This document shows, piece by piece, positions 4,575 to 31,349 of a stretch of DNA of 64,000 nucleotides. Location of the stretch: positions 1 to 64,000 of the forward strand of contig NZ_CXSU01000001.1 in the NCBI RefSeq assembly GCF_001403795.1, read 5' to 3'. The stretch is from Jannaschia donghaensis. Its GTDB lineage: Bacteria > Pseudomonadota > Alphaproteobacteria > Rhodobacterales > Rhodobacteraceae. Position 1 is the stretch's first letter, and each line of letters opens with the position of its first letter. The notes below the pieces were generated by a model. It did no database searches, had not been told where the DNA came from, and was given only the letters and a program-made list of their open reading frames with translations. Both the position numbers and the translations under genes were made by a program.

Positions 4575-4662
4575 AGTCCGGCCGGGGCTGCAATAAAACC
4601 CTTGCTTATATGATCCCACGGCGGCCTGAGCGTCAACTTTATCGGACCAAACGGGCGGCAGG

Positions 4663-4680: not shown

Positions 4681-4697
4681 CATCGGGAGCCGGATGA

Positions 4698-6600
<1,903 letters not shown>

Positions 6601-6604
<4 letters not shown>

Positions 6605-8122: not shown

Positions 8123-8133
<11 letters not shown>
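6601..8133 (+). CDS. bchB: Light-independent protochlorophyllide reductase subunit B
   Basis: A 510-residue NifK-like subunit that pairs with BchN. The GTG at 6601 is the start because the sequence that follows ([17 protein letters not shown]) aligns with the usual N-terminus and places Asp36 exactly where the aspartate ligand of the NB-cluster is expected ([10 protein letters not shown]). A proline/alanine-rich linker (about residues 425-460) precedes the C-terminal domain ([17 protein letters not shown]), which shapes the substrate pocket. It overlaps bchH by 11 bases. Confidence 0.96.
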
Positions 8134-12592
<4,459 letters not shown>

Positions 12593-12593
<1 letters not shown>

Positions 12594-13252: not shown

Positions 13253-13294
13253 CGGCACCGCGCGTCAATCCAGGCGGACAGTCTGCCCGAAAAC

Positions 13295-13344
13295 TGTAAA
13301 TGCACGTTGACACCTGATGGATCGGGTGTCACATTTTCGGGACA
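13295..13344 (+). promoter_or_regulatory. Paired PpsR operators and promoter of the lhaA-puh unit
   Basis: Two exact TGT-N12-ACA palindromes, TGTAAATGCACGTTGACA (13295-13312) and TGTCACATTTTCGGGACA (13327-13344), lie 32 bases (three helical turns) apart centre to centre, fit for cooperative binding on one face of the DNA. The end of the first supplies TTGACA, a consensus -35 box, and the second would cover the -10 region and start site. Confidence 0.85.
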
Positions 13345-13417
13345 CGCAGCTGCCCGGGGATAGCATGTCAGACCGATTCCATCTCATCCTGTCGGCCTCG
13401 GCATCGTCGGTGCACGC

Positions 13418-14845: not shown

Positions 14846-14863
14846 TAGCAGGAGGAGACACCC

Positions 14864-15637: not shown

Positions 15638-15700
15638 CGACACCCTCCGGGGCGCGCATCCGTGCCCCGGAGGATCACACGCAAGCGGGAGGAACGACCC

Positions 15701-16339
15701 ATGCACCACGATGATTTCAAGTTCGAGCCCGTCCACGGATTGCCCGAAGCCCTGCCGGACGGAGAGCATATCCTCTGGCAAGGCTCCCCGGACCCCAAGC
15801 GTCTGGCGCGCAGCGCCTGGAAGGTGAACTGGGTCCTTGGATATTTCGCACTGCTGGCATTCTGGCGCGTCATGGCGTCGGCCGCCGATTTTCCGCTGAC
15901 GCAAGCCCTGCTGCACGCCGTGCCCTTCGTCCTGGCCGCCGGCGTGGCCGCCGCGATCCTGTACGGCATGGCCTGGGCGCAGGCGCGCGCGACGGTCTAT
16001 ACGCTGACCAATCGCCGGGTCGCGATGCGCATCGGCGCCGCGCTGACGATGACGCTGAACCTGCCCTATGTCTGCATCACCAACGCGAACCTGGCGGTGT
16101 CCAAGGACGGCACCGGCAACATCGCCTTCGATCTGTCGGCCGACGGCACGCGCATTTCGTATCTGATGTCCTGGCCCCACGTGCGCCCCTGGCATTTCGC
16201 ACCCGCGCAGCCCTGCCTGCGCGCGATTTCGGATGCCGCGCGCGTTGCCCGGATCTTTGCCGATGCCGCCGAAACCCGCGTGGCCGAGCCGCGGCTGACC
16301 CGCGACGACGCCCCCCAGACAGCCATCGCCGCGGAGTGA
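15701..16339 (+). CDS. puhB: Photosynthetic complex assembly protein PuhB
   Basis: A 212-residue membrane protein required for efficient reaction centre assembly. After a soluble N-terminus (FKFEPVHGLPEALPDGEHI), two or three hydrophobic segments (about residues 45-115) are followed by a PH-like C-terminal part (ARATVYTLTNRRVAMRIG). The ATG at 15701 has a GGGAGGAA ribosome site 7 bases upstream and matches the family start; an upstream in-frame ATG at 15662 is less likely. Confidence 0.94.
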   Translation: MHHDDFKFEPVHGLPEALPDGEHILWQGSPDPKRLARSAWKVNWVLGYFALLAFWRVMASAADFPLTQALLHAVPFVLAAGVAAAILYGMAWAQARATVYTLTNRRVAMRIGAALTMTLNLPYVCITNANLAVSKDGTGNIAFDLSADGTRISYLMSWPHVRPWHFAPAQPCLRAISDAARVARIFADAAETRVAEPRLTRDDAPQTAIAAE

Positions 16340-16344
16340 CCCCC

Positions 16345-16821
16345 ATGCAACGCAATCCCACCGCCTCCCTCGCCAACCAGATGAAGCACCGCGACCGCGA
16401 AATGGTCCCGCGTTTTCTGGTGCAAGCCATGTTCGCCCTGATGATCGGGACGCTGGCGCTCGTTGCCTACGCCCGTCTCACCGACCGCCCGTTGGAAGGC
16501 ACGCGCCCGACGGCGACCATCGTGGAGGAACGCAGCTTCACCATGGTCGGCGACCGCGGCACCGGGGTCGGTCTTTTCGACGCAAACAACGTGCAAGTCG
16601 CTCATTCCAATGATAACAAGAAGGGGTTCATCGACGTCATCTGGGTGTCGGTGAATCGCGAGCGCCTTGTGCAAGGCGCAGACATGGCCGCCCCGATACG
16701 GGTCGTCCGCAGGGACGACGGGAAAACGGCCATCCTGGACGATGCGACAGGCTGGTCCATCGTCCTGATCGGGTACGGTCGTGACAATGTCGCGGCCTTC
16801 GCCGACCTTCTGGACAGCTGA
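16345..16821 (+). CDS. puhC: Photosynthetic complex assembly protein PuhC
   Basis: A 158-residue protein with one N-terminal membrane anchor (about residues 25-45, VQAMFALMIGTLALVAYARL) and a periplasmic domain, as in PuhC, which supports RC-LH1 assembly. The ATG at 16345 has GGAG eight bases upstream. A GTG at 16336 that overlaps the puhB stop is an alternative start and would add three residues. It lies directly behind puhB in the conserved puhABC order. Confidence 0.92.
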   Translation: MQRNPTASLANQMKHRDREMVPRFLVQAMFALMIGTLALVAYARLTDRPLEGTRPTATIVEERSFTMVGDRGTGVGLFDANNVQVAHSNDNKKGFIDVIWVSVNRERLVQGADMAAPIRVVRRDDGKTAILDDATGWSIVLIGYGRDNVAAFADLLDS

Positions 16822-16838
16822 ACGGAGGACTAACGACC

Positions 16839-17135
16839 ATGGGACTTCTCACCCGCACCAAGGAAACCGCACCCTGCGAGATCACCATCTCGCACCGGTT
16901 CGAAGAGCTTTCGGCGCATTGCAAGTTCCTCAACGGCGCCGTGATCGGCCCCGGTGATACCGTGGAGGTCGACGGACCCGAACTGATGGCCGCCTACGGC
17001 GAGGTCGTGTCCGACACGCGCACCGCGACGATCACGCGGGCCAGCGATCTGGAACGCCTCTGGACCCGCTGGACCGGCGATTTCGAATTCATGGAACTGT
17101 GCGAGTTCTCCTTCTCCGAAGAGGTCCTGTCATGA
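16839..17135 (+). CDS. Conserved-position 98-residue protein between puhC and acsF, function unknown
   Basis: A small soluble protein, acidic towards its C-terminus, with no signal peptide or membrane helix. It contains two cysteines near the N-terminal third (Cys13, Cys28) and one near the end (Cys88), followed by SFSEEVLS. It has a clear GGAGG ribosome site before the ATG, and its stop overlaps the acsF ATG (ATGA), so it is very probably translated and coupled to the cyclase. The position suggests a role with AcsF or in complex assembly, but this rests only on neighbourhood. Confidence 0.8.
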   Translation: MGLLTRTKETAPCEITISHRFEELSAHCKFLNGAVIGPGDTVEVDGPELMAAYGEVVSDTRTATITRASDLERLWTRWTGDFEFMELCEFSFSEEVLS

Positions 17136-18268
17136 ACAAGCCCACCCATTCCGCCTTTGCCGACACCGCCGAAGAGGCGATCGCCGCCCAGGATGCCGCC
17201 GCCGAACGCGATTTCGCCGATGGCATGACGTCCGAGATGGCCACCGAAGTCGCCATGCAGAACACCCTGCTGACGCCGCGCTTCTACACCACCGATTTCG
17301 AGGAAATGGACGCCATCGACGTCACCCCCGTGCGCGAAGACTGGGACAAGTTGATCGCACAGATGAAATCCGACCCCAACCGCGGCCATTTCAAGAAAAA
17401 CGACGATTGGCAGGTCGACTGGGAAGGTATGGAGCCGGCCCTGCGCAAGGAGTTCATCGACTTCCTGATCTCGTCGTGCACCGCCGAATTTTCAGGCTGC
17501 GTGCTCTACAAGGAAATGAAGCGGCGCGGCAGCAACGACGACATCACCACTCTGTTTCAGCTGATGGCCCGTGACGAGGCACGCCACGCCGGGTTCATCA
17601 ACGACACCCTGCGCGAGGCGGGGATCCGGGTGAACCTGGGCTTCCTGACGCAAAAGAAGAAATACACCTATTTCCGGCCCAAGTTCATCTACTACGCGAC
17701 GTATCTGTCCGAAAAGATCGGCTATGCCCGCTACATCACCATCTTCCGCCACCTGGAGGAACATCCCGACAAGCGGTTCCACCCGATCTTCAAGTGGTTC
17801 CGGGAATGGTGCAACGATGAGTTCAGCCACGGCGAAGCCTTTGCCCTGCTGATCAAGACCGATCCCAAACTGACGTCGGGCGTCAACAAGCTGTGGATCA
17901 AGTTCTTCCTCACGGCGGTCTATTCGACCATGTGGGTCCGCGATCATCAGCGGCCCGTCTTCCACGACGCCCTCGGCGTCGATGTGACCTGGTACGGGCA
18001 GGAGGTCTTTCGCAAGACATCCGAGATCACCAAGCAGGTCTATCCCTTCACACTCGACATCGATCATCCCCGCTGGCTGAAGAACCTCAACAAGATGGAG
18101 GAAGCCTCCCGGCAGATCGCCGCCGCCAAGGCGCGCGGCGGGATCGAGGGGGGCGTGGCGCGCGCGGGCGGCATGGCCAAGGCGGCGTTCTACTTCGTTT
18201 CGACCCTGCTGATCCCGTCGATCCCGAACGAGGTGCCCGAAAGCCCCCGGATGGAGCCCGCATACTGA
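17132..18268 (+). CDS. acsF: Aerobic Mg-protoporphyrin IX monomethyl ester oxidative cyclase
   Basis: A 378-residue di-iron enzyme that forms the isocyclic ring E using O2. The two ExxH-type iron sites are visible as LMARDEARHAGF and WCNDEFSHGEAF, with additional carboxylates in between. The protein is full length and the ATG overlaps the stop of the 98-residue gene. No anaerobic (radical SAM) BchE is present in the window, so ring closure here depends on oxygen, in keeping with an aerobic phototroph. Confidence 0.96.
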   Translation: MNKPTHSAFADTAEEAIAAQDAAAERDFADGMTSEMATEVAMQNTLLTPRFYTTDFEEMDAIDVTPVREDWDKLIAQMKSDPNRGHFKKNDDWQVDWEGMEPALRKEFIDFLISSCTAEFSGCVLYKEMKRRGSNDDITTLFQLMARDEARHAGFINDTLREAGIRVNLGFLTQKKKYTYFRPKFIYYATYLSEKIGYARYITIFRHLEEHPDKRFHPIFKWFREWCNDEFSHGEAFALLIKTDPKLTSGVNKLWIKFFLTAVYSTMWVRDHQRPVFHDALGVDVTWYGQEVFRKTSEITKQVYPFTLDIDHPRWLKNLNKMEEASRQIAAAKARGGIEGGVARAGGMAKAAFYFVSTLLIPSIPNEVPESPRMEPAY

Positions 18269-18269
18269 C

Positions 18270-19079
18270 ATGCTCGACGCCTGGATCATGACACCCTGGA
18301 TCGCGGCGGTCTTCGCCGTCTTCGCTTGGTGGTTCGCCACCGGGGCGATCCTGATCGTGGTCCGACGCTCGGACGCGGGCGACCGGATGGCCCATGGCCG
18401 CTCGGTCGTCCTGGCTGTCCCGCTTCTGGCGCTCGGCATCGCGGGGTTGATCGTCACCTCCGGCGATCTCACGCCGCTCAACATCTATCTGTCCTTCGGC
18501 TCGGTCCTGCTGATCTGGGGCTGGATCGAGCTGGCCTTTCTGGCGGGCGTCATTACCGGGCCCGAACGCGGCGACTGCCCGCCGGGCCTGACCGGCTGGC
18601 CGCGATTCGTGCGTGCCTGGACAGCGATGTCCCACCACGAAATCGCACTGCTGCTGGGTCTGCTCGCCGTCGTCGTGGCCAGCCATCCGGCGGAAAATCC
18701 CTTCGGCCTTTGGGCCTATGTCATCCTGTTCTTCGCGCGCATCTCGGCCAAGCTGAACCTGTTCTTCGGGGCGCCGCGCATCAACACCGAATTCATGCCG
18801 CGCCCACTGGCCCATCTGAAATCATACTTCCGGCAGGGCCCGATCACACTGGCTTTCCCGATCGGCGTCACGCTGCTGTCGGCCGCGACGATCTGCTTCG
18901 GCGAACGGCTCGTCTCCGCGTCCGATCCTGCCACCGCGGTGGGGTTTGCCCTACTTGCGACGCTGGCCGGATTGGCGACACTTGAACACTGGCTGATGGT
19001 GGTGCCCCTGCCTGACGCGAAACTATGGCGCTGGATGCTTCCCGTGCCGAAGACCCATCAAGAAGGGACCGACCCATGA
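18270..19079 (+). CDS. puhE: Photosynthetic complex assembly protein PuhE
   Basis: A 269-residue membrane protein with seven or so hydrophobic helices, belonging to the PuhE family (DUF3623) always found in puh operons. In Rhodobacter its loss perturbs reaction centre assembly and bacteriochlorophyll production. The conserved central block [20 protein letters not shown] is present. The ATG follows acsF by one base and the stop overlaps the hemA ATG (ATGA). Confidence 0.93.
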
Positions 19080-20290
19080 ACTTCGACGCAATGTTCGACG
19101 CACAGCTTCAGGCCCTGAAGGATGAAGGAAATTATCGCTACTTCAAGGAATTGGAGCGCAAGTGCGGCAAGTTCCCTCGCGCCGCCAACCACGAAGACGG
19201 AGAGACGCGGGACATCACCGTCTGGTGTTCCAACGACTATCTGGGCATGGGCCAGCATCCCAAGGTCGTCGAGGCGATGTGCGAAGCCGTGCAACGCACC
19301 GGCACCGGCGCGGGCGGCACGCGCAACATTTCGGGCACCAACCACGATCACCTTTTGCTGGAGGCCGAACTGGCCGATCTGCACGGCAAGGAAAACGCCC
19401 TGCTTTTCACATCCGGCTACGTGTCGAACTGGGCCGCGCTGTCTACCCTGGGCAGCCGCCTGGCCGACTGCGTGATCCTGTCGGATTCGGGCAACCACGC
19501 CTCGATGATCGAGGGCATCCGCCATTCCAAGGCCAAGAAGGTCATCTGGAAGCATAACGACGTGAAGGATCTGGAGGCCAAGCTGGCCGCCCTGCCCGCC
19601 AACGTCCCCAAGATCGTCGCCTTTGAATCGGTCTATTCCATGGATGGCGACATCTGCCCGATGAAGGAAATCGTCGAGGTGTCCGAGAAATACGGCGCAA
19701 TGACCTATCTCGACGAAGTCCACGCCGTCGGCCTGTATGGCCCGCGCGGTGGCGGCGTCTCCGAGCGCGAGGGCCTGGCCCATCGCATCACCCTGATCGA
19801 AGGCACGCTGGGCAAGGCCTACGGCGTCGTCGGCGGCTATATCACCGGGTCCGCCGCGCTGTGCGATTTCATCCGCAGCTTCGCGTCGGGCTTCATCTTC
19901 ACCACCGCCCTGCCTCCGGCCGTGGCCGCCGCCGCGCGCGCGTCGATCATCCATCTGAAGGAAAGCAGCGCCGAGCGGATGCAGCAGCGCCGTCAGGTCG
20001 CCCGCCTGCGCAACGCCCTCGACCGCCAGGGGATTCCCCACATGATCAACGACAGCCACATCGTGCCCGTCATGATCAAGGATCCGGTCAAGACCCGAAT
20101 GCTGGCCGATCATCTGATGGACGAATGGGGTATCTACGTCCAACCCATCAACTATCCGACCGTGCCCAAGGGGACGGAACGCCTGCGCTTTACCCCCTCC
20201 CCGCTGCACACGGACGCCGACATCGACCATCTGGTCAACGCGCTGTCCCATCTATGGAAGCAGTGCGCCATCGCTCACGCAGTGGCCTGA
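19076..20290 (+). CDS. hemA: 5-aminolevulinate synthase
   Basis: A 404-residue pyridoxal-phosphate enzyme that condenses glycine and succinyl-CoA to 5-aminolevulinate, the first committed tetrapyrrole precursor. Family motifs include [13 protein letters not shown], the [13 protein letters not shown] glycine loop, and the PLP lysine in [13 protein letters not shown] (about residue 248). It closes the puh operon, so precursor supply is co-transcribed with complex assembly. Its 3' end overlaps the convergent permease gene by 16 bases. Confidence 0.97.
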
Positions 20291-21750
20291 CCGCCCCGCC
20301 GCCCTTCCACCCGAAGGACGGCTCCGCCCCCCATTGCCGCCCGCAACCGTCGCGACACGGCGTCGATGGCCAGCGTGATCGCGATCGTCACCGCCAGCAG
20401 CGCGAGCACCCGGTCCAGCCGCAGCTCGGCCACGTTCGTCTGAATGTGGAAGCCCAGCGTGGCGATCCCCAACAATCCGACGATCGCGGATTCCCGCACG
20501 ATGATCTCCCAACGATAGAGACACAGTGCCACGAAATTGCCCGACAGACGGGGAAACAGCTCCCACCCCGCCAGCGTCAGTCCGCGCGCGGCGTCGGCGC
20601 GCAACGGCACGTCCGCCGCCTGCCGTCCCATCAGATGCGCGATGATCGCGCCGTTGTGCAGCGCCAGCGCCAGAACGGCCGGCAGCAGGGACAGGCCGAA
20701 GACCTGCAGGAACACGAAGGCCAGCATGTATTCCGGCAGGGACCGCAGCACGACCAGCACCCCGTGCCCCACCCACGATCCGGCCCGCCCCGCCACACGC
20801 GGCACGATCATCGGGAAGGCCACCACCGCCAGCAACGCCGCCCCCGCCAGCGCCAGTTGCGCCACCACCAGCGTCGCGATCGCGCCCGGCAGCGCCTGAT
20901 CCACGAACACGCGCTCCAACCATCCCGTCCAATCGCCCCCCGTACGTACGGGGGCCGGCACCACGTCCCACAAGAACCGCCATAACGCACCGTCTCCCAT
21001 CGGTGGATGCCTCAACAAGGTCAGCGCGATGATCGACGCACCCAGATACAGCGGTGCCAATCGCCAGATCATCCAACGCCGCATCGGCAGGATCAGCGCG
21101 AGAAAGATCAGCAGGCAGGCCGCCGCGGCCCCGTATTCGGCCTGCCGAAAATACGTCTCCAACTGAAAGCCCAGCGTCGGCAAGCCGACGAAGCCCAACA
21201 CTGCGGACGACCGCAATCCGCATTCCAGACGGTAGAGCGTATAGGTCCGCATCTGCGGCAAGCTGCCCGGCAACCGCCCCCACAACAATGCAACCGCCCC
21301 GCCCACGCCCGGCGGCACGGGGTCGGGCGCTTCCTCCATGTATTCGGCAAACACCTTTGCGAAAATCCCGGCATAGGGCAGCCCGATGGCCAGCACCCCG
21401 GTCAGCGGCGACAGACCCGTGACGTTCAGCAAAAGCAGCGCCCAGAACAACTCGTGCACGGCGCGCACCGAAACGCACAGCCACCGAACCGGCGCGCGGT
21501 GATAGACTGGGGCCAGGATCAGGCCCGCGACCGCCCCGAAGGCCACGCCGCAGAACGCGAAGGCCAATGTCAGCCCCGTCGCCCGCGCCAATCCGCCCGG
21601 ATCCGAAAAATCCGGCGACAGCAACCCCCGCCCCATCGCCGCCAGCGTCAACCAGGGGTCGGGACGCACCGCCGACAGATCCGCAAGGACGAAGGCAACG
21701 GCGGTCAGCACGGCGAACCCCGCGCAGACGTCCCGCGCGCGCAACGTCAC
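20275..21750 (-). CDS. Tandem-fused PhnE-type ABC permease
   Basis: A 491-residue membrane protein made of two PhnE-like permease units in one chain (about residues 1-240 and 260-491). Each has around six hydrophobic segments and an EAA-type loop ([19 protein letters not shown] in the first, [20 protein letters not shown] in the second). The likely role is the membrane channel of the importer encoded with the downstream-listed ATPase and binding protein. The fusion gives both permease halves from one gene, where related systems usually use two genes or a homodimer. Substrate is inferred only from the binding protein. Confidence 0.82.
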
Positions 21751-22397
21751 GTATAAAGCTCCATCAATCGTGCGGCATCGACGTCCGCCGTGGCCGCGTC
21801 CAACACGATGCCCCCAGCCTTCAGCCCCACGATGCGGGTGGCGGAACGCAGCGCCTGGCCGGTATCGTGCAAGACCATGATCGAGGTCCCGAAATCGCCC
21901 GACAGCGCCAGCAGCAGCGCGTCGCCCTGCGCCGGGTCCAACGCCGACACAGGCTCGTCCGCGAACACCGTCGCGCCGCCGCGCAGCATCGCACGGGCCA
22001 GCGCCACCCGCTGCCGCTGCCCCCCCGACAGCGACGCGACCGGGCGACGGCCAAGCCCGGTCAGACCGACGCGGTCCAGAACCTCCTCGACCGACCGACG
22101 CTCGGCCGTGTTCGGCCGGATCAGCGTGCGCAGGTTGCGCGCCGCGCCGAAGTCATCCAGCCGTCCCATCCAGACATTGTGAAAAACCGACAACGCATCG
22201 ACCAAGCCGTGATCTTGCGCCACCACCGCAACCCGGCCATCGGCCCGGTCGTGCAACGCGCGCAGCAGGGTCGATTTACCCACACCGCTGCGCCCCATCA
22301 GGGCCACACGCTCCCCGTCCGCGATCTGCAGCGTGACGTCCCGCAGGACGGCCTCCTTCCCCCAGCCGAGCGTTTCCGACCGGAGCGCCAGCGTCAT
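21747..22397 (-). CDS. PhnC-like ABC transporter ATP-binding protein
   Basis: A 216-residue ATPase with Walker A GRSGVGKSTLL (about residues 35-45), signature [14 protein letters not shown], Walker B TVFADEPVSALDP and switch histidine VLHDTG. It is slightly shorter than the usual PhnC (about 260) because the region after Walker A is compact. It overlaps the permease gene by four bases and the binding-protein gene by one, so the three form a single import operon. Confidence 0.88.
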   Translation of the reverse strand: MTLALRSETLGWGKEAVLRDVTLQIADGERVALMGRSGVGKSTLLRALHDRADGRVAVVAQDHGLVDALSVFHNVWMGRLDDFGAARNLRTLIRPNTAERRSVEEVLDRVGLTGLGRRPVASLSGGQRQRVALARAMLRGGATVFADEPVSALDPAQGDALLLALSGDFGTSIMVLHDTGQALRSATRIVGLKAGGIVLDAATADVDAARLMELYT

Positions 22398-23236
22398 CAG
22401 TCGATGATGTCCAGATCGCGCGCCGTATCCTCGATCGGTTGATACAGCGCATTGTCTGCCGGGATGAAGGCCGCGCGCGGGAAGGACGCCAGAAGATCGG
22501 CATCGTCCATGCCCAGAAGCGCGTCGCGCACCCGCGCCGTGAAGCCGTCGCCGAACCGCGCGTCCACATCGCCCCGGATCGTCCAGTTGTAGTCGGGATA
22601 TGGCGGCGTCTGCCAGATCACGCGGGTCGCGTCGGCCTCGGGCGCGCCTTCGGCCACCGCCTTGTTGTAAACGGTGTAGTTCAGCGCCCCCACCTCATAG
22701 GCCCCCGATGCGACCAGCCGAAGCGTCTGACCGTGATCGCCCGAATATCCGACATCGGAAAACAGCTCTGACGGGGACATCCCCGTCTCCTCGCGCAGCC
22801 AGAATTCCGGCATCAGGCGACCGGAGGTGGAGGTTTGCGCCCCAAAGGTGAACCGGCGGCCCGCGATATCGGGAAACGCCTCCGACGCCTCGATCCCGGT
22901 GTCCACATTCGCGATGAAATAGGTGACGAATTCCTCGTCTTCCGACCCCTGCGCCAACGCCTGGCTGCCCGGCACGGCAATCCGGGCCTGAACACCCGAC
23001 AGCCCGCCGAACCAGCCCAGCTGGATCTGATCGGCGCGGAACGCGGTGACGGCGGCGGCATAGCTCTTGACCGGCACGTATTCGACATCCACGCCCAGTT
23101 CGGCTTCCAGATAATCCGCGACGGCCCCGAACCGGGCGATCAACCGGGTTTCGTCATCGTCGGGAATGGCCGAGAAATAGAGCGTCTGTGCCCCAGCGGG
23201 CAGGGTCGTCAGCAAAAGCAGGACAAGGGCTTTCAT
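22397..23236 (-). CDS. PhnD-like periplasmic binding protein, putative selenate/phosphonate type
   Basis: A 279-residue exported protein with a short signal peptide (MKALVLLLLTTLPAGAQ). The conserved stretches FSAIPDDDETRL, EYVPVKSYAAAV and QLGWFGGLSGVQA are typical of the PhnD-like family that is annotated as putative selenate or phosphonate binding. Such annotation rests on genomic association, so the true ligand could be another small oxyanion or organophosphorus compound. The ATG at 23234-23236 was chosen because it opens the signal peptide. First gene of the importer operon. Confidence 0.82.
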   Translation of the reverse strand: MKALVLLLLTTLPAGAQTLYFSAIPDDDETRLIARFGAVADYLEAELGVDVEYVPVKSYAAAVTAFRADQIQLGWFGGLSGVQARIAVPGSQALAQGSEDEEFVTYFIANVDTGIEASEAFPDIAGRRFTFGAQTSTSGRLMPEFWLREETGMSPSELFSDVGYSGDHGQTLRLVASGAYEVGALNYTVYNKAVAEGAPEADATRVIWQTPPYPDYNWTIRGDVDARFGDGFTARVRDALLGMDDADLLASFPRAAFIPADNALYQPIEDTARDLDIID

Positions 23237-23303
23237 GGGGGCACCGGCGGCAAGGAAAGGATGCTCTTCTAGAACAACCCTCGCCGCCGGATTGCAACCC
23301 GGC

Positions 23304-23843
23304 TCAGACCACCGCCAGGACCACGACCATCGCCAGCGCATAGATCACGATCGCGCCGCCGATCAGCAGGTAATGAAAATTGCCCGCCGTCTGCGCCCGC
23401 AAGATCGACTTCATCTGACCCATCAGATCGGGCCAGGTGTAGCTGACGAAATCGCCTTGGGTGAAAACGGCCTTGATGCGACCTTCCGAGTCGACGACCG
23501 GCAGACGGCGGAACCGCTCGTTCGACATCATGCGCAGCCAGTCCAGCATATCGTCGGTTTCGCGCGCCACACGCGGATCGGCGGTCATGATATCCGACAG
23601 CTTGGTCGTCTTGGCGTCCAGCCCCCGACCCACCAGCTTGTTCATCACATCGCGCTCGGTCACGACGCCCAGCACCTTGTCGTCGCCGTCGGTCACGATC
23701 ACACAGCCGTAGTTCAGGTCCGACATGGCCGACACCGCGTCGAAGATCGTCATGTCGGGCGGCCCGGTCAGCGGCTTGGTCTTGGTCTTGTATTCCGCGC
23801 GGTCCATCAGGCGATTGCCCGCCCGCTGTTCGGTTTGTGCCAT
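23304..23843 (-). CDS. CBS-domain protein with C-terminal membrane anchor
   Basis: A 179-residue protein with two CBS motifs (about residues 25-75 and 85-145; FDAVSAMSDLNYGCVIVTD, RFRRLPVVDSEGRIKAVFT) that usually bind adenosine nucleotides. One hydrophobic helix at the end (about 155-179, YLLIGGAIVIYALAMVVVL) anchors it. The ATG at 23843 follows a GGAGACG ribosome site. It lies 64 bases after the dehalogenase gene on the same strand. It may sense energy charge near the membrane; a direct partner cannot be named. Confidence 0.82.
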   Translation of the reverse strand: MAQTEQRAGNRLMDRAEYKTKTKPLTGPPDMTIFDAVSAMSDLNYGCVIVTDGDDKVLGVVTERDVMNKLVGRGLDAKTTKLSDIMTADPRVARETDDMLDWLRMMSNERFRRLPVVDSEGRIKAVFTQGDFVSYTWPDLMGQMKSILRAQTAGNFHYLLIGGAIVIYALAMVVVLAVV

Positions 23844-23907
23844 GGTCGTCTCCTGCAAATCGGTTCGTCTCTAACCTAGCCGCTGGCGCCCCTGCGTCAA
23901 ATGGCAG

Positions 23908-26900
23908 CTACAGGTCGACCTCCACCACGCCCCCGGCCCGCGCCGCGCGGCTTTGGCACAGGATGATGGCCCCCTGCCGCTGCGCCTTGGACAAGACAAA
24001 GTCGCGGTGCTCCACCTCGCCGGAAATAAGTCCGCATTTGCACACGCCGCAGATGCCGTCGCTGCATTTTACATCCACCGTCACACCGCTTTTCGCCAGC
24101 ATATCGGTCGCGCTGCGATCTGCCGGCACCGTGATGTCGCGCCCCGACCGGGCAAGGCGAAGGATGAAAGCGTGGTTTTCGTACTCGGGGCCGTCGGGGA
24201 CGGAGAAATACTCAAGATGCCTGGCGTCCTCGGGCACGCCAGCCGCTTGCGCAGCGGCCATCGCCGCATCCATGTAGGGCCCCGCCCCGCAGGCATAGAC
24301 ATGGGTTCCGTCCGGCAGACCCGCCATGGCCGACGGCATGTCGCAGCGCGTATCTTCGTCCGTCACGTGCACCGACACCCGGTCCGCCCAGGGAACCGCG
24401 GCCAATGCCTCCAAAAACCCCATCGTCGTTCGTGACCGGCCCGAATAATGCAGCGCAAAAGACGCGCCCGCATGGTGCAACGCATGACCCATCGCGATCA
24501 TCGGCGTGATCCCGATGCCGCCGCCCATCAGCAGGGAATGGGTCGCGTCATGCAGCGGGAAATGGTTGATGGGCCGCGATACGAACACCTTTCGACCGGG
24601 CGCGAAGATGCGGTGCATCAGCTTCGATCCACCCCGCCCCCCGTCTTCGCGCAGCACGCCGATGCGGTACCGCGACCGATCCGCCGGGTCGCCCCACATC
24701 GAATACTGGCGCAGGAATTCGGGGGCGACCACCACATCCAGATGGGCACCGGCATCCCATTCAGGCAGGTCGGATCCGTCCGGCAACACCAGGTCATAGG
24801 CGACGACGCCGTCGGCCATTTCGATTGCCTGATCGACAAGCACTTGAATGACCGGCGCTTGACCGTCAGCCGTATAGATATGATCCGTCGGCACCTGCCC
24901 GGTTGCATCCCGCGCGCGATATTCCTCGGCCGTGATCATCGCCTGATAGGCCTCGATCCCCGCCTCGCGGTCCATCGGGGCCGGGTAGGGATAGGGATGC
25001 GGGGCCAAGGGCGCGGGATAGACGGCCAGCGTCTGATCGGCGTAATCCACCTTCAAATCGGGCTGCAGATCGCGCGCATTCACCGGTTTGCGCGTGGGCC
25101 GATACGCCCCGTCCTCCTCGATCTCCAGATCCCACCACCATTTTTTGACGGGGTTCAGACCGCCCCGCCCTGCCGCGTCGTCCAGCTTGGCCAGCAAAGG
25201 GGCCGCCTGCGGGATATTCATCGCGGCCCACCGGAACGGGGCTTCCGCAAACAGCCCTTCCAGGTTCCAGGGGCAAGTCTTCATGCACCGCCCGCACATT
25301 GCGCCGCCTTCGGTCCCGATCCGGTAGGACGCGCATTTCTGGCTGTCGGATTTCCAGATCTCATAGCCGTTGAACATCAGCTTCGGACCCGCCGTGATGG
25401 CCCCCGACGGACATTCGCGCGCGCATTTGTTGCAGCTTCCGCAAAAGGTCTGCAGCCCGAAGTCGATGGGCCGGTCGTGCGCCATCGGCAGGTCGGTCGT
25501 CACCACCCCCGATTTCAGGCGCGGGCCAAGGAACGGGTTCAGGATCACCTCCCCGATCCGGCTTACCTCCCCCAACCCCGACAGCAACAACAGGGGGGGC
25601 TGCAACACCTCCCCGTCCATCACCGTATGCGCCTTGGCCGAATAGCCCAGCCGCCGGATCTGTGCCGCGATCACCCCGCCCAGCAGGGAAAACCGTAGAT
25701 ACGCGCGCATCGATTGGGCGACGCTGATCCAGTCGTCACCCGACGCGCCCTCCATCGTCTCGAACCCCTGATCCACGATCATGCTGATGGCCTGGTCGTG
25801 GGGCGGGTCGATCACGTCGCCGCGCGCGTCGTGGCTGTACCACGTCCAATCCGGGCACCGGCTGATGCCGACCGCATCGACGCCCAGCCAATACGACGTC
25901 GCCTTGATCAACTCCGCCGCCGCTTCGGGGGCCACCGCGACCTTTTCGGCCGCCACCTCTCCGTCCTGCAACAATACGAACGCCCCAAGCGCGCGCCGCT
26001 GCGCCATCGACGGTGCGGCCTTGCGGACGTAATGCCCGCCGCGTGCCTGATCCTGCAACGGCTTGCCCATATCCCCGAATTGCACCCGCGCGAACAGATC
26101 GGCACGCTTGGGAACCCGCGGCACCCGCGGCTCGTCGATATAGGTCGTGGGCTTATCCACCCGTTTCAGCGTCTCGAACGGATGCCCGCCGTCCACGAAC
26201 CGCCGACCGGCATAGGGCACGGCATTGCCCGCCGATTTCACCGTCCCCCGCCCCAGCTTCCAGTCCAGCCCGAACGCCGATTTCGGCTGAACCGTCGCCA
26301 GCGGCAAATCCATCGCAAGGTCCAGGGTCGTCGTCACGACCGCCAGGCCGAACCGCGTACCGACGTAAGGATGCTCCAGCCCCCCTGCCCCGAACGTCGC
26401 CACCCCCGCCGCCACCGCCAGCCGCGCCAGATCCACATCCGACGCGGAAACGCTGTGCCCCTTGGCATCGAACCCCAGCAACCGAATGTAATTCGACAGA
26501 ACCGCTGCCGTTTCCGCCGCCAGCATCCCGGCGCGGTGGGCCTGCGCGCCCACGATCCAGTCGCAGCCAGGCTCCTCCGCTTCCACATCGCGGGGGTTTT
26601 CATACATCAGCACGATCGCATGGGTGTGCCCCGACACCGGCGTCGGCGGGGCCAGCGCCGAATCCCGCAGATCCGCCATGATTCCGTCGATGCCAGAGGC
26701 CAGCGTCTTGGTTTGCCGCGTCGCCAGATCCCCGGCCAACCGGGTCACGTCTTCATTGACGATCGGTGCGTTCAGCAGGGCCGCTTTCGGCACCGGCCCG
26801 ATCCCCACGATCGCCGCGTCGCAGAAATATCCGAACCCTTTCAGATGCCGCGCGCGTTCGTCCGGGTCCGCCGGAATGTCGGATTGCACGCCGTTTACCA

Positions 26901-27102
26901 GACCATCGCGGATGGCATCCAGCATCGCCTGATGCTCCCGCATCGCATTCACGATCGACCGGGGGTCGGCATCCTGGAACGTCAGCGGCACCATCGCCGG
27001 GATGGCCGTCAGGTCGGGCATCGTGCCGCGCGCCAACCGCTCCACCGGATACGGACCCAGGTGTGGCGGGCGATCCTTGGTGGAGAAGAGGCGGGATTTC
27101 AT
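23908..27102 (-). CDS. Self-sufficient respiratory-independent reductive dehalogenase (RdhA fused to FMN/2Fe-2S reductase)
   Basis: A 1064-residue cytoplasmic-type enzyme without a Tat signal. Residues 1 to about 690 are an RdhA-like corrinoid domain with two [4Fe-4S] ferredoxin motifs, CGSCNKCARECP (554-565) and Cys590 plus CGRCMKTCPW (603-612). Tyr422 and Lys490 may be the catalytic pair known from NpRdhA; this is inferred from position. Residues about 745-980 are a flavin/NAD(P)H oxidoreductase (RQYS at 798-801, GGGIGITPMI at 860-869). Residues about 985-1064 are a plant-type [2Fe-2S] ferredoxin (CSDGICGVCKC plus Cys1049). This is the BhbA/NpRdhA layout, which removes halogen from halophenolic compounds using NAD(P)H under aerobic growth. 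Confidence 0.9.
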   Translation of the reverse strand: MKSRLFSTKDRPPHLGPYPVERLARGTMPDLTAIPAMVPLTFQDADPRSIVNAMREHQAMLDAIRDGLVNGVQSDIPADPDERARHLKGFGYFCDAAIVGIGPVPKAALLNAPIVNEDVTRLAGDLATRQTKTLASGIDGIMADLRDSALAPPTPVSGHTHAIVLMYENPRDVEAEEPGCDWIVGAQAHRAGMLAAETAAVLSNYIRLLGFDAKGHSVSASDVDLARLAVAAGVATFGAGGLEHPYVGTRFGLAVVTTTLDLAMDLPLATVQPKSAFGLDWKLGRGTVKSAGNAVPYAGRRFVDGGHPFETLKRVDKPTTYIDEPRVPRVPKRADLFARVQFGDMGKPLQDQARGGHYVRKAAPSMAQRRALGAFVLLQDGEVAAEKVAVAPEAAAELIKATSYWLGVDAVGISRCPDWTWYSHDARGDVIDPPHDQAISMIVDQGFETMEGASGDDWISVAQSMRAYLRFSLLGGVIAAQIRRLGYSAKAHTVMDGEVLQPPLLLLSGLGEVSRIGEVILNPFLGPRLKSGVVTTDLPMAHDRPIDFGLQTFCGSCNKCARECPSGAITAGPKLMFNGYEIWKSDSQKCASYRIGTEGGAMCGRCMKTCPWNLEGLFAEAPFRWAAMNIPQAAPLLAKLDDAAGRGGLNPVKKWWWDLEIEEDGAYRPTRKPVNARDLQPDLKVDYADQTLAVYPAPLAPHPYPYPAPMDREAGIEAYQAMITAEEYRARDATGQVPTDHIYTADGQAPVIQVLVDQAIEMADGVVAYDLVLPDGSDLPEWDAGAHLDVVVAPEFLRQYSMWGDPADRSRYRIGVLREDGGRGGSKLMHRIFAPGRKVFVSRPINHFPLHDATHSLLMGGGIGITPMIAMGHALHHAGASFALHYSGRSRTTMGFLEALAAVPWADRVSVHVTDEDTRCDMPSAMAGLPDGTHVYACGAGPYMDAAMAAAQAAGVPEDARHLEYFSVPDGPEYENHAFILRLARSGRDITVPADRSATDMLAKSGVTVDVKCSDGICGVCKCGLISGEVEHRDFVLSKAQRQGAIILCQSRAARAGGVVEVDL

Positions 27103-27133: not shown

Positions 27134-27553
27134 TCAAGCGGCCCCCTGCCCCATCGGGTCGAAAACCGGCACGCCGGTCGGCGCGAAGTGCCGGACATTG
27201 CGCGTCACGACCGTCAGGCCGTGCACCTGCGCGATTGCCGCGATCATCAGATCGTTCTCGCTATTGCCGATCCGGGCCGCCATCTGGCCCCAGACCATCG
27301 CAGCCGCGGTGTCCATCGGCAGGATGCGGTCCTTGAATTCGACGTCGCGGACGTGGTCGATCCAGGCGCGCAGCGCATCGGCGAATGCCGGATCGTGCCG
27401 CCGCACCTTGTGGATCCCTGTCTCCACCTCCGCCAGCGTCACGACCGACAGGAACAGCGTGTCGACGGGACGCGCCGCCGCCCACGCGGCCACCTGCGGA
27501 AATTTTTGCCGCCGCCGCAAAAGCGACAGCGTATCCGTGTCCAGCAGGTACAT
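27134..27553 (-). CDS. vapC: PIN-domain toxin (VapC/FitB type)
   Basis: A 139-residue PIN ribonuclease. The acidic metal-site residues are visible as MYLLDTDTL (Asp6), LAEVETG and NDLMIAAIA, in the order expected for VapC-like toxins. It overlaps the antitoxin stop by one base (TGATG), which couples their translation. The pair lies directly beyond parB, as plasmid addiction modules often do. The cellular target cannot be read from sequence. Confidence 0.88.
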   Translation of the reverse strand: MYLLDTDTLSLLRRRQKFPQVAAWAAARPVDTLFLSVVTLAEVETGIHKVRRHDPAFADALRAWIDHVRDVEFKDRILPMDTAAAMVWGQMAARIGNSENDLMIAAIAQVHGLTVVTRNVRHFAPTGVPVFDPMGQGAA

Positions 27554-27813
27554 CAGAATTCGACATCGCGCGGTCGGGTATTCGCCAGCCGGTCCCATTC
27601 GAAGTCCGGCTCATCATCCCGCGCCTGCGGCATGTCCTTGAGCAGTTCGCCGAACAGCACGGGCTTGCGCAACAGGCGCAGCGCGTCCCAGTCCGCCTGC
27701 GACACGACAACGACCGCCGGCGCGCCCCGTTTGGTGACATGCTGTGGCTCGCCGGCCATCGCGGCATCGACCACGGCGCTGAACTTTGCCTTTGCATCTT
27801 GAACGGACCACAT
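27553..27813 (-). CDS. Phd/YefM-family antitoxin
   Basis: An 86-residue antitoxin. The N-terminal DNA-binding fold is typical of Phd/YefM (WSVQDAKAKFSAVVDAAMAG, HVTKRGAPAVVVVS), and the acidic C-terminal tail (DDEPDFEWDRLAN) should wrap the toxin. The ATG at 27811-27813 has AGGAGA seven bases upstream. Its promoter contains palindromic repeats (27823-27853) fit for autorepression. Confidence 0.88.
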   Translation of the reverse strand: MWSVQDAKAKFSAVVDAAMAGEPQHVTKRGAPAVVVVSQADWDALRLLRKPVLFGELLKDMPQARDDEPDFEWDRLANTRPRDVEF

Positions 27814-27888: not shown

Positions 27889-28983
27889 TCACGCGTCGCT
27901 ATCAATCTCCCGCCAGAAGGCCTCGATCGCCTTCTCCAACCGCTCCCGGTCCAATGCGCCGAAATCCACATCCGCGCGCAACTCCATCTTGCCCTGCGTC
28001 GCCGTCGCCCGCACGCCCGGCCCCACCGGCACGGTCAAGGCGACCCGCCCCCGCCGCCCCTTTGGCGCGCCCCGTGCCTTGGGGGGCAGCGGGGCGGCCT
28101 GCGCGTCGATCGCGTGGCGCAGAATGGCAAGCTCCTCAATCGCATCCCGCTCGGGCTTGGCCCGCAGTGCGTCCGACACGACCCGCACAAAGGCCGGATC
28201 CGCGTCCAACCGATCCGCCAACGCAAGTCCAACAGACCGCGGCAAAGCGGCAGGATGATCGAGCACTTTCTCCAACCGCGCCATGACTGTGGCGAACCGC
28301 CGAATATAGCTGCGCTTCTGCGGCGAAACGCTGGCGAAAAGGGCGTTCACCGCCGCATCCACAGACTCGCAGCCATCCACGCCGTCGGACGCATAGGCGC
28401 GCGCCAGCTGCGCCATTTCGGCGAAGCTCACGTCCTTGCGGATCAGGTTCTCGTCGACCATCCGGCGGTACAAACCCGCGTCCGATTCTCCGCTGGCCAA
28501 AATGCCTGCGGGAATTCGCGCCCATGCCGCATCACCCGTTTCGGCCAGCAACTCCCGAAACGCCGTCAGACGGCGCAGACCCTGGACCAGTTCGAACCCG
28601 CCCTGCCCGTCCGCCTCGACCCGGATCGGATTGCTCAACCCGATGTCCCGAAGCGACGCCTTGAGATCATCCAGATCCAAGTTGTCCGACAGCCGCCGAT
28701 CACGCGTCAGCTTGGTTGTGCGGACGGCCGCCACGTCGACCAGATCGGTGATCAGCCCCAGCTTCTTCAGCCGGACGAATTCATGTGCCAACCCGTCATT
28801 TTCCGCGCGGATATCGGCCTCCATCTTCTCACGGTAGCGACGCGCGTCCCCAACCTCGCCGATGGCCGATGCCATGGGTCCGCGACGGGCCGATTTCATC
28901 TCGATCTCGGGCGGTTGCTGAATTTCGGCGGGTGCATCGTCGTCCGGCAGATCGACATCAAAGATCCGGCGTTTGCGGCTCAT
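27889..28983 (-). CDS. parB: ParB-family plasmid partition protein
   Basis: A 364-residue partition protein. The ParB/Sulfiredoxin-like N-terminal domain lies at about residues 85-180 (LSDNLDLDDLKASLRDIGLSN, LVQGLRRLTAFREL, RRMVDENLIRKDVSFAEMAQ), followed by a helix-turn-helix region (about 185-260, SVSPQKRSYIRRFATVMARL) and a C-terminal dimerisation part. The start overlaps the parA stop (ATGA). It binds parS sites, probably the three TTTCCCCGCGGGGAAA-type palindromes, and works with ParA to segregate the replicon. Confidence 0.9.
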   Translation of the reverse strand: MSRKRRIFDVDLPDDDAPAEIQQPPEIEMKSARRGPMASAIGEVGDARRYREKMEADIRAENDGLAHEFVRLKKLGLITDLVDVAAVRTTKLTRDRRLSDNLDLDDLKASLRDIGLSNPIRVEADGQGGFELVQGLRRLTAFRELLAETGDAAWARIPAGILASGESDAGLYRRMVDENLIRKDVSFAEMAQLARAYASDGVDGCESVDAAVNALFASVSPQKRSYIRRFATVMARLEKVLDHPAALPRSVGLALADRLDADPAFVRVVSDALRAKPERDAIEELAILRHAIDAQAAPLPPKARGAPKGRRGRVALTVPVGPGVRATATQGKMELRADVDFGALDRERLEKAIEAFWREIDSDA

Positions 28984-30281
28984 GCCTCATCCTCCATCTT
29001 GTCCCAGGCCACCAAAACGGTATCCCTGAATTCCGCATAGGCACTGTCGAAGGTGGAGCGCGCCCGCCTCCAGGTTTCCCGCGTCATGTCACGATAGTCG
29101 ATTTCATAGACCGAGCTCAGAAACCGGCCCGATTGTTCCACCGCGCGGGTGTGTTCGATCGGGTTCTCGGCCATCCGGTCGCCAAACACCTTGTGAAAGG
29201 CGTCTCGCATCGCGCGGTGCAAATCGTTGCCCGGCTCAAAACGGGTCAGGATGAACCGAACGTCGAGGAACGTCTTGCCGAAATCCGATTTCCCCGCGGG
29301 GAAACCCTCGAACCCAACCAGATCCTCCAAGGCTTCCGACAGCTGCCCGATGAAGGACGTGGTGGAGTCGTACTCCCAATACCCTGGGCCCGACGGGATA
29401 TAGAGGACATCGGCGGCAAACACCGCGTTCATCGATTGATACCCGATCGCCGGGGGGCAGTCGAAGATGATCATGTCATACGCATCGCGCGGCAACGCAT
29501 CCAGCCATCGAGACACGGCGGCGAAGAACGACCAGTCGGGGTTCATGTGCCGATATTGGGCCGACGCGAACTCCACGAAGGCGGCGTTCGCGCAGCTGGG
29601 CACGATATCGATCGTGGACCAACACGTCGGCTTGATGAAATCGCCTTGGCGCAAATCCCCAAGACCGGTGTCGGCAATCGAGGCGGGCAGGCGGCGTTGT
29701 GGCGGTTTGCGTCCGGTCTCGGCCCCCTGAGCCGCGTCGTTCATCCGCTGCGTCTCGTGAATCAGGTCGCGGGCCAGAATGCCCCAGACCGTTTGTTCTT
29801 CATTCACGTCGCTCAATCCCATCGAATGGCTGAGCGTGGCCTGAGGATCGAAATCGACACAAAGCACGCGGTAGCCGTCAAGCGCCGCCGCATGTGCCAG
29901 GTGCAGCGCCGTCGTCGACTTGCCCGCGCCGCCCTTGAAGTTGCTGACCGCCACCCGGATCGCCCGCTTGCCGGCCGGACGCCGGGGCATCAGCGACTTG
30001 CGATTGATCTTCAATTTGCGACGCAGCTCGTTCACCTCCTCCAGACTGAACCACCGCTGCCGTCCATCCTGCTCCACCTCGCCGGAGGGCAGGGATGGGT
30101 CGGCAGCCAGCCGACCGCGGAACGTGTTCTGATTGACCCGAAAGATCAGCTCCGACACCTCCCAGGAGGAGAACCGTCGCAGCACCTTCTCATGGCCCGG
30201 AGAGAAAGTCTGCTTGCGGATCCAGCCCTGCATCTTGAGTGAGCTGTCGCGCATGGCCTGCAGGTCGCGGTAGTCGAGCAT
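28980..30281 (-). CDS. parA: ParA-family plasmid partition ATPase with N-terminal DNA-binding domain
   Basis: A 433-residue type Ia partition ATPase. The deviant Walker A box is NFKGGAGKSTTALH (about residues 113-126), Walker A' is VLCVDFDPQATLS, and Walker B is DMIIFDCPPAIG. The N-terminal 100 residues (FSSWEVSELIFRVNQNTFRG, WFSLEEVNELRRKL) form a helix-turn-helix region, which in this class autorepresses the par operon. A parS-like palindrome is embedded in its coding sequence (29289-29304). It is divergently oriented to rep across a 393-base non-coding region. Confidence 0.93.
   Translation of the reverse strand: MLDYRDLQAMRDSSLKMQGWIRKQTFSPGHEKVLRRFSSWEVSELIFRVNQNTFRGRLAADPSLPSGEVEQDGRQRWFSLEEVNELRRKLKINRKSLMPRRPAGKRAIRVAVSNFKGGAGKSTTALHLAHAAALDGYRVLCVDFDPQATLSHSMGLSDVNEEQTVWGILARDLIHETQRMNDAAQGAETGRKPPQRRLPASIADTGLGDLRQGDFIKPTCWSTIDIVPSCANAAFVEFASAQYRHMNPDWSFFAAVSRWLDALPRDAYDMIIFDCPPAIGYQSMNAVFAADVLYIPSGPGYWEYDSTTSFIGQLSEALEDLVGFEGFPAGKSDFGKTFLDVRFILTRFEPGNDLHRAMRDAFHKVFGDRMAENPIEHTRAVEQSGRFLSSVYEIDYRDMTRETWRRARSTFDSAYAEFRDTVLVAWDKMEDEA
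29289..29304. repeat. parS-like palindrome 2 (inside parA)
   Basis: TTTCCCCGCGGGGAAA, identical to the copy beyond parB, lies within the parA reading frame (encoding GFPAGK). A perfect 16-bp repeat in a coding sequence argues for selection on the DNA site itself. Confidence 0.72.
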
Positions 30282-30674
30282 GATGTCGCCTCAACGTTAT
30301 TCAGTCTTCGGAACCGAAATACGCCGAATTTGACAAAGGCGCAAATCCTCGATTACCGAATTACGGACTATCTGATTTCCCTGCGGGGAAAAGGGGTCAG
30401 GGGCGCGGGGCGGACGCCGTGACGTGATTCGCGCAAAGCCCTCGAAGACCCTTATCTTGGGGTGACAGACCTTGATGCATACCCTGGCTTGAGGGGACAT
30501 CATCAGCACATGGCGTGACACTCAAGATGTCCCCCTATACCATATCTATACCAATTTCATTATTTGAAGAATTAGGCCTTCGGCAAAGCGACTTGACAGA
30601 ATCGCGAAATCCAACGCAAATCAGGACAACGGCCGGGATAACGGTTGATTGAGCAGCGGCGGCGGGAGGACCAG
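30282..30674. other. Candidate replication origin and divergent parA/rep promoters
   Basis: A 393-base non-coding region between parA and rep. It holds a parS-like palindrome (30376-30391), a 9-bp inverted repeat GGGGACATC/GATGTCCCC (30493-30501 and 30526-30534), and the most AT-rich patch of the window (about 30536-30580), which starts with two TATACCA direct repeats spaced one helical turn apart (30536-30542 and 30547-30553). A TTGACA box at about 30592 may drive rep. This set of repeat, inverted repeat and melting region is what a plasmid origin looks like; no classical iterons or DnaA-box array were recognised. Confidence 0.6.
30376..30391. repeat. parS-like palindrome 3 (origin region)
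   Basis: TTTCCCTGCGGGGAAA differs at one base from the two perfect copies. It lies between parA and the AT-rich repeats, so ParB bound here could link partition with the origin or with parAB autoregulation. Confidence 0.65.
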
Positions 30675-31349
30675 ATGGGTCTCGGCCAGATTTCACACGG
30701 ACGACAAGCCCTGACGGGACGCAGCTCGGCCGCCATCAAATACGATGTGCTGACGGCTTTGGGGGCCTGGGCCTGTAACGGAGACAAGCATGCCCAGCGG
30801 TCTGTCCTTCGACTCATCACCCTCATCACCGCGCGGTATAATTGGCAGGACGACACCCTGACAACGGGCCAGAGAGAGATCGCGACGCTTTGGTCCGTCG
30901 ATCAACGAACCGTCAAACGCGAGATGGCGCGGATGCGGGATTTGGGTTGGCTGATCCTCAAACGGCCTGCCGCGCGCGGACGGGTCGCCTGCCACGGCCT
31001 TGGACTCGACGCGATCTTTGCACAAACGCAATCCTGCTGGACCAACGTCGGGCCCGACTACGTCGCGCGGATGACCATAACGCCCACCGCGGACACCGCG
31101 CCAAACGTCGTCGCCTTCCCGACACTTGCCGACGGGGCCTGGGGTAGGATCGCAGCGCAGTTGCAGGCCGAGGATGCGGGCCTGTTCAACGCCTGGTTCG
31201 CGTCCTTGGTCTCGCTTGGTGAACGCGACGGTGTGCTGCGGTTGAAACCGCCGTCCCGATTCCACGGCTCTTTCGTACGCACGCATTACATTGGACATCT
31301 GCAGGTGTTGGCGCAGCAGCAGGGCTTGACCGTGGATCTGGTGGAATAG
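30675..31349 (+). CDS. Replication initiator of the DnaA-like replicon type
   Basis: A 224-residue protein. The N-terminal half (about residues 10-110) looks like a replication-protein winged helix (KYDVLTALGAWACNGDKHAQ, QREIATLWSVDQRTVKREMA). The C-terminal 75 residues resemble DnaA domain I (WGRIAAQLQAEDAGLFNAWF, LKPPSRFHGSFVRTHYIGHL). Rhodobacterales plasmids of the DnaA-like type use such initiators next to parAB. The ATG at 30675 has GGGAGGA five bases upstream; a TTG at 30645 is a weaker alternative. Divergent to parA, with the origin candidate in between. Confidence 0.78.
   Translation: MGLGQISHGRQALTGRSSAAIKYDVLTALGAWACNGDKHAQRSVLRLITLITARYNWQDDTLTTGQREIATLWSVDQRTVKREMARMRDLGWLILKRPAARGRVACHGLGLDAIFAQTQSCWTNVGPDYVARMTITPTADTAPNVVAFPTLADGAWGRIAAQLQAEDAGLFNAWFASLVSLGERDGVLRLKPPSRFHGSFVRTHYIGHLQVLAQQQGLTVDLVE

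Follow-up and report, generated by a model that had tools for sequence, protein, structure and literature searches.

What is a gene for a reductive dehalogenase doing among the photosynthesis genes of Jannaschia donghaensis, and does either activity serve the other? The gene, rdhA, lies in the stretch of DNA analysed here (the window), which covers the first 64,000 bases of a 67,245-bp contig. In our reading, to which we give a probability of roughly 0.78, rdhA would encode a soluble, cytoplasmic, catabolic dehalogenase (RdhA) that debrominates or deiodinates a 4-hydroxyaryl substrate at the ortho position, and the gene would have reached its plasmid through one placement of a gene block in the ancestor of three Jannaschia species.

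Architecture of the predicted enzyme

According to the open reading frame list and its translation, rdhA occupies positions 23908-27102 on the minus strand and encodes 1064 residues; an earlier description of this DNA, which we call the original prediction, had named no strand. The ATG at 27102 is backed by the J. marina and J. faecimaris proteins (83-84% identical), whose N-termini match; the open frame continues upstream of it, up to 1096 aa, and no clear ribosome-binding site was seen by eye before this ATG. The original prediction had described one chain holding an RdhA domain with two [4Fe-4S] motifs, a flavin/NAD(P)H reductase and a [2Fe-2S] ferredoxin, free of a twin-arginine (Tat) signal, and all of this was borne out. 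The reductive dehalogenase model TIGR02486 matches with 176.7 bits (cut-off 160.35), the two [4Fe-4S] motifs read C554-x2-C-x2-C-x3-CP and C590-x12-C-x2-C-x3-CP, and in phmmer searches the tail (~753-1059) matches phthalate dioxygenase reductase (2pia; 761-1059) and the reductase tails of self-sufficient P450s. The tail contains RQYS (798-801) and GGGIGITP (860-867), which we take to be its flavin motifs, and a plant-type [2Fe-2S] motif, C1013-x4-C-x2-C...C1049. No RR occurs within residues 1-40, so that no Tat signal is predicted.

Among solved structures, the best phmmer match is NpRdhA (E ~1e-159), covering residues 3-101 and 158-731. The first of these stretches would be a vestigial N-terminal copy of the cobalamin domain, aligned along NpRdhA by sequence only; NpRdhA itself has such a copy, as passages of PMC10463259 describe. 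The alignment to NpRdhA that the original prediction had proposed as a check left the catalytic set intact: Y426, K488 and R552 of NpRdhA align with Y468, K530 and R594, the residues having been checked by position and the lysine register being confirmed by the K488Q mutant entry 6zy0. These three residues are invariant across 34 aligned RdhAs, all at least 67% identical to that of the window and consisting of the window protein and 33 others picked from the 80 loci of a named-genome scan (the best 80 of 561 relatives, some loci with short flanks). Catabolic RdhAs have been divided into full-length, self-sufficient enzymes with a reductase domain, such as BhbA and JtRdhA, and truncated ones such as NpRdhA (passages of PMC10463259), and by its predicted architecture the window RdhA belongs with BhbA and JtRdhA. 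The dN/dS of rdhA is 0.15 against J. marina, 0.11 against J. faecimaris and 0.17 against the Jannaschia genome G404, and acsF gives a similar 0.19; because the values among the three plasmid copies are as low as 0.11-0.15, rdhA is under purifying selection.

By homology, electrons would pass from NAD(P)H to FMN, then through the [2Fe-2S] cluster of the tail and the two [4Fe-4S] clusters to a base-off corrinoid, at which a 4-hydroxyaryl substrate would lose an ortho bromine or iodine, with Y468 and K530, the counterparts of Tyr426 and Lys488 of NpRdhA, providing the proton. An enzyme of this type would probably tolerate oxygen.

A gene block on a photosynthesis plasmid

The contig ends carry a 90-bp repeat, as expected of a circle, and we therefore regard the contig as circular. 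That rdhA lies on a photosynthesis replicon, as originally predicted, was confirmed by the ppsR, bch, puh and puf genes on the same contig. Together with a DnaA-like initiator and ParAB, the gene content identifies the replicon as a predicted circular photosynthesis plasmid. The two parts of the photosynthesis cluster join round the circle and are split only by the numbering.

The contigs of the window, J. marina and J. faecimaris have a common order of initiator, ParA, ParB, Phd, VapC, rdhA, CBS-domain gene and transporter, and each also carries the photosynthesis cluster. In J. marina SHC163 (G310) this is a contig of 124,925 bp with part of puhA at both ends, and a MarR-type gene lies between rdhA and the CBS gene; in J. 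faecimaris the block lies on an 89,326-bp contig, and 1.8 kb separates VapC from rdhA. The gap from the transporter to hemA is nearly 7 kb in both, while in the window the two abut. G404, which is probably J. pohangensis, has a plasmid of the same type, on a contig of 50,639 bp whose ends repeat 95 bp. Here hemA and ParB are 0.7 kb apart and the block is missing; the rdhA of G404 is found on a 790-kb contig. A quick tree of 137 RdhA proteins unites the copies from the three plasmids in a single clade (support 100); the starred set of 9 around it includes, besides them, three further copies from Jannaschia and three from Sulfitobacter. The interpretation that fits best is that the block was placed on the plasmid once, before these species diverged, whereby one block of rdhA, transporter and toxin-antitoxin genes would have come beside the plasmid partition genes in their ancestor. 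The G404 plasmid may have lost the block.

Distribution of the enzyme

To place the gene in its family, we sampled 394 genomes from the family of the window evenly, at close to one per genus. A protein search gave RdhA matches of E = 0, a few of them partial, in 149 of the 394, and these make up the rdhA-positive set; another 36 of the 185 matching genomes were left out, four with ambiguous weaker matches and 32 with weaker rows presumed to be reductase-only. Within the genus Jannaschia, rdhA was found in 12 and puhA in 14 of 20 genomes. The best 80 of 561 relatives include, next to Rhodobacterales, Rhizobiales-type genomes and bins and 7 loci of Granulosicoccaceae. The latter are uncultured bins of Gammaproteobacteria (L107, L111, L116, L127, L150, L161, L168), whose RdhAs are 67-71% identical to that of the window and are placed among Rhodobacterales in the tree; cross-class transfer and binning error are both possible. 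The presumably oxygen-tolerant dehalogenase type thus has strong matches in over a third of the sampled family genomes, recurs in gammaproteobacterial bins and can reach a photosynthesis plasmid.

Clues to the substrate

The gene pobA encodes 4-hydroxybenzoate 3-monooxygenase (TIGR02360), and in six other loci it adjoins rdhA within 0.4 kb, upstream, downstream or divergently (L151, L152, L172, L202, L203, L204). It lies downstream by 16 bp in G370 and by 90 bp in G227, divergently at 359 bp in G197, upstream by 3 bp in a Dinoroseobacter bin, and downstream by 25 bp in two near-identical Hyphomicrobiales bins. The G370, G227 and G197 loci were chosen for prior pobA adjacency, and the remaining pobA-adjacent loci were unselected. 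On the Comamonas plasmid pBHB, a pobA-like stretch is found 2.35 kb from bhbA. Adjacency is the minority arrangement: by hand count it occurs in 3 of the 73 rdhA-positive genomes with a listed pobA position (the same G197, G227 and G370), and a further 2 of the 73 have pobA within 11 kb of rdhA (G108, G089), while among the 80 named loci three are pobA-adjacent (L172 and the near-identical relatives L151 and L152) and two have pobA within 7 kb (L150, L132).

JtRdhA acts on bromo-4-hydroxybenzoates, the chlorinated counterparts being only inhibitors (passages of PMC10463259), and because of this and the rdhA-pobA adjacency elsewhere we favour, by analogy, halogenated 4-hydroxybenzoates as the substrate. 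The likeliest would be 3-bromo- and 3,5-dibromo-4-hydroxybenzoate, along with other phenolic acids of this sort that marine algae supply, and the product, 4-hydroxybenzoate, would feed PobA. The window's own genome carries pobA, hpd and cobN, and therefore both use of the product and corrinoid supply are plausible. The rdhA-pobA neighbourhoods would thus give the enzyme a concrete native substrate, which bears on natural organobromine cycling in sunlit seawater.

Several findings weigh against our reading. In the window, rdhA adjoins neither pobA nor any evident ring-degrading gene; no pobA was found in the flanks (up to ~8 kb) of 59 family rdhA loci, and 31 of the 149 rdhA-positive genomes have no pobA match. 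The excess of pobA among rdhA-positive genomes (118/149 vs 146/245, p = 6e-5) is a figure not corrected for relatedness. No common pathway emerged among 115 immediate neighbours of rdhA, the largest families being FAD oxidoreductase/GcvT-type (5-6/115) and MarR (3-4/115). The AlphaFold model of RdhA is poor, with a mean pLDDT of 66.5, and served for a fold match only, in which Foldseek ranked NpRdhA first (E ~1e-50), followed by P450 reductase tails and 2pia. As to the placement of the block, the G404 rdhA is not the first to group with the plasmid copies and joins them one step further out, in a set of 12 (support 90).

A conserved neighbourhood as a guide to the substrate was rejected, given the varying neighbours in 60 loci and the lack of a common pathway. 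In these 60 loci, which include that of the window, clustering at an identity of at least 38% gave no gene family recurring near rdhA in more than 7, and a full match to the block was found only in the congener J. marina. A MarR-type regulator was likewise rejected as a general partner of rdhA, since direct search found it in 3 of the 60 loci; this is an undercount, as the search passed over the MarR gene annotated in Jannaschia M317.

The variable neighbours lend themselves to another interpretation, namely that the same enzyme serves general detoxification, or the salvage of iodine or bromine from diverse halophenols or halotyrosine products, rather than growth on halogenated 4-hydroxybenzoates. 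It agrees with the strong matches in 149 of 394 genomes, 31 of them lacking a pobA match, with hpd in the window's own genome, and with the range of JtRdhA, which takes brominated and iodinated phenols, tetrabromobisphenol included (passages of PMC10463259). We nevertheless consider this role rather unlikely, in view of the tight rdhA-pobA neighbourhoods, in three arrangements, in several lineages and of the conversion of 3,5-dibromo-4-hydroxybenzoate to 4-hydroxybenzoate by BhbA (passages of PMC13101508).

Is the photosynthesis linkage functional?

The original prediction had called the linkage of such an enzyme to photosynthesis genes unusual, and the survey agrees. There are 60 genomes positive for both rdhA and puhA, and among the 56 for which both positions are listed the two genes share a contig in 7 and lie within 50 kb of each other in 3, namely the window, J. 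marina and G165. In G165, which belongs to another genus, a full-length rdhA lies on a 1.27-Mb contig (L095:2400-9822), separated by 2.4 kb from the photosynthesis cluster, whose bchD end is the nearer one, with malonyl-CoA-synthetase-like and bchO-like genes (named by eye) in between. As far as the search results show, the literature searched held no report of rdhA on a photosynthesis plasmid, an absence that holds for that library only, and no word starting with dehalogenase occurs in passages of PMC6052148.

A functional tie between dehalogenation and photosynthesis was not borne out. In the family sample puhA is present in 60 of 149 rdhA-positive and 104 of 245 other genomes, so that the two genes occur independently (Fisher p = 0.68; p = 0.92 with the four ambiguous weaker matches counted in). 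The whole window was searched for TGT-N12-ACA, which we take to be the PpsR-type pattern, with no mismatch allowed. The 15 exact sites, against 4.9 expected, all fall at 2,279-13,344 and 48,302-60,219, the photosynthesis-gene ends, and none in 13,345-48,301 around rdhA, for which reason co-regulation of rdhA by PpsR was rejected. Because of this independence and the lack of an exact PpsR-type site around rdhA, the linkage looks historical, a case of hitch-hiking next to plasmid maintenance genes, rather than one of function or joint regulation. The location of rdhA is probably incidental.

A looser connection can be envisioned, in which the block of rdhA, transporter and CBS gene is kept on the plasmid because a life on the surfaces of seaweed or phytoplankton draws on both phototrophy and the dehalogenation of algal bromophenols; the two would then be inherited, and possibly transferred, as a package for algal association, and respiratory substrate saved by light would free NAD(P)H for dehalogenation. 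We hold this to be improbable. More improbable still is a direct link, in which dehalogenation depends on light, either for its reducing power or for expression of the gene, and selection for this explains the plasmid location. The retention of the block in three Jannaschia photosynthesis plasmids and the 2.4-kb distance to the bchD end in G165 speak for it; against it stand the independent occurrence in 394 genomes, the 15 exact PpsR-type sites of which none is near rdhA, and the sister plasmid of G404 that lacks rdhA. The plasmid database PLSDB, from which the window's own genome may be left out, points the same way, with 8 rdhA plasmids, 10 puhA plasmids and no record common to both.

There is little to recommend the notion that rdhA is plasmid cargo without benefit and decaying. 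The gene does sit beside a toxin-antitoxin pair, and nothing on the window's contig significantly matches the MarR-type regulator of J. marina, but the frame is intact and the dN/dS among the three plasmid copies is similar to that of acsF. Hardly credible, finally, is an epoxyqueuosine reductase-like or other non-dehalogenating corrinoid enzyme, the former of which the original prediction had itself raised: the QueG model TIGR00276 gives a weak match of 27.1 bits against a cut-off of 200, whereas the reductive dehalogenase model exceeds its own, and the Tyr/Lys/Arg set and dicluster motifs match NpRdhA.

Other features of the window

The features are collected in Table 1. In the first part of the photosynthesis cluster, ppsR, bchF, bchN, bchB, bchL, puhA, puhB, puhC and puhE were identified by models, and acsF, puhE and hemA through a DNA match to an annotated plasmid. 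The B12-binding domain of the regulator is just below its cut-off, and bchH, bchM and the pucC-like gene are inferred from the gene order in Sulfitobacter alexandrii. The order of initiator and ParAB is the same as that of an annotated DnaA-N protein and ParAB in Jannaschia M317.

Table 1. Predicted features of the window and the basis of each assignment
Feature	Coordinates	Strand	Basis
Photosynthesis cluster, part 1: ppsR, B12-binding regulator, bchF, bchN, bchB, bchH, bchL, bchM, pucC-like, puhABC, acsF, puhE, hemA	2337..20290		see text
Permease, putative selenate transporter	20275..21750	minus	PhnE-like, two matched stretches, below the model's cut-off
ABC ATPase, putative selenate transporter	21747..22397	minus	PhnC-like, below the model's cut-off
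Periplasmic binding protein, putative selenate ABC transporter	22397..23341, true start probably near 23263	minus	TIGR04553, 358 bits, cut-off 250
CBS-domain protein, hydrophobic C-terminus by eye, downstream of rdhA	23304..23858	minus	PF00571; retained next to rdhA on the plasmids of J. marina and J. faecimaris
rdhA, predicted self-sufficient catabolic reductive dehalogenase: vestigial cobalamin-domain copy, corrinoid domain with two [4Fe-4S], FMN/NAD(P)H reductase, plant-type [2Fe-2S]	23908..27102	minus	TIGR02486, NpRdhA and phthalate dioxygenase reductase matches, motifs, dN/dS
VapC-type PIN toxin	27134..27553	minus	PF01850 above cut-off, VapC models below; start read from sequence
Phd-type antitoxin	27553..27813	minus	TIGR01552 above cut-off; start read from sequence
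ParB-type partition protein	27889..28983	minus	PRTRC ParB and RepB models, below cut-off
ParA-type partition ATPase	28980..30281	minus	RepA-partition model, 202 bits, below cut-off
DnaA-like replication initiator	30645..31349	plus	PF11638 DnaA_N, 27.9 bits, cut-off 24.6
Photosynthesis cluster, part 2: bchD- and bchI-type subunits, carotenoid-type oxidoreductases (inferred), pufL, pufM	44993..63762		Pfam matches

Only ~50 bases separate rdhA from the CBS gene, and at the far end of the block the 3' end of the permease gene overlaps that of hemA by 16 bases. The VapC and Phd genes are, by their model matches, a predicted plasmid toxin-antitoxin pair. The selenate-type binding protein is found in 4 of 20 Jannaschia genomes, three times on rdhA photosynthesis plasmids; the fourth homologue (G410 C1:745171-746037) has two in-frame TGA codons and is perhaps a pseudogene. 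Operons similar to that of the selenate transporter occur on other plasmids, most frequently in Paracoccus (24 of 96 matching records). The MarR-type regulator that follows rdhA in J. marina (L034:7931-8515) has HpaR as its best model, below cut-off, and the annotated MarR regulator beside rdhA in Jannaschia M317 lies at L098:11467-11919. Elsewhere in the window's own genome (contig C12, L002:7-2478, minus strand), an 823-residue protein fuses an RdhA/QueG-like Fe-S domain (TIGR02486, 56.6 bits, below cut-off) to an NAD(P)/FAD domain like that of the glutamate synthase small subunit, and is possibly another fused corrinoid or Fe-S reductase.

Comparison with known systems

In all likelihood the replicon is the 67.2-kb plasmid of J. 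donghaensis among the extrachromosomal photosynthesis plasmids (exPGC) of Jannaschia described by Liu et al. 2019 (PMC6739100), with which it has in common a DnaA-like initiator and a photosynthesis cluster of ~43 kb. Table 1 of that paper gives 3.49 Mb, 67.2 kb and 66.01% for J. donghaensis CECT 7802, and we find a genome assembly of 3.48 Mb and a G+C content of 66.0% in the window, though the table lists 67 contigs against 13 in the assembly used here; passages of the paper assign the compatibility group DnaA-like I to Jannaschia strains. The paper differs from the present account in that no word starting with dehalogenase occurs in its main text.

For the enzyme, the original prediction had invoked the layout of both BhbA and NpRdhA, and the comparison with BhbA stands while that with NpRdhA does not. 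The RdhA part of NpRdhA (Nitratireductor pacificus; 4ras, 6zxu) is ~40% identical by structural alignment and has the same Tyr/Lys/Arg set, but NpRdhA is without the reductase tail that the window protein has (passages of PMC10463259). JtRdhA, from the marine Jhaorihella thermophila, has architecture and key residues in common with the window RdhA, and with NADPH in air it dehalogenates the phenols named above; passages of the same source describe no plasmid or photosynthesis context for it. BhbA (WP_015585978), from plasmid pBHB of Comamonas sp. 7D-2, is likewise an RdhA with a reductase tail and plasmid-borne, and is 51.0% identical over the whole protein. The surroundings differ, in that pBHB is a conjugative IncP plasmid whose bhbA region has ligA, an extradiol dioxygenase and porins, whereas the rdhA of the window, with no evident ring-degrading genes beside it, sits on a photosynthesis plasmid. 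The self-sufficient kind of RdhA and its wide distribution are already known and the enzyme is ordinary for its bacterial family, and its location on the plasmid looks like a local move in one genus.

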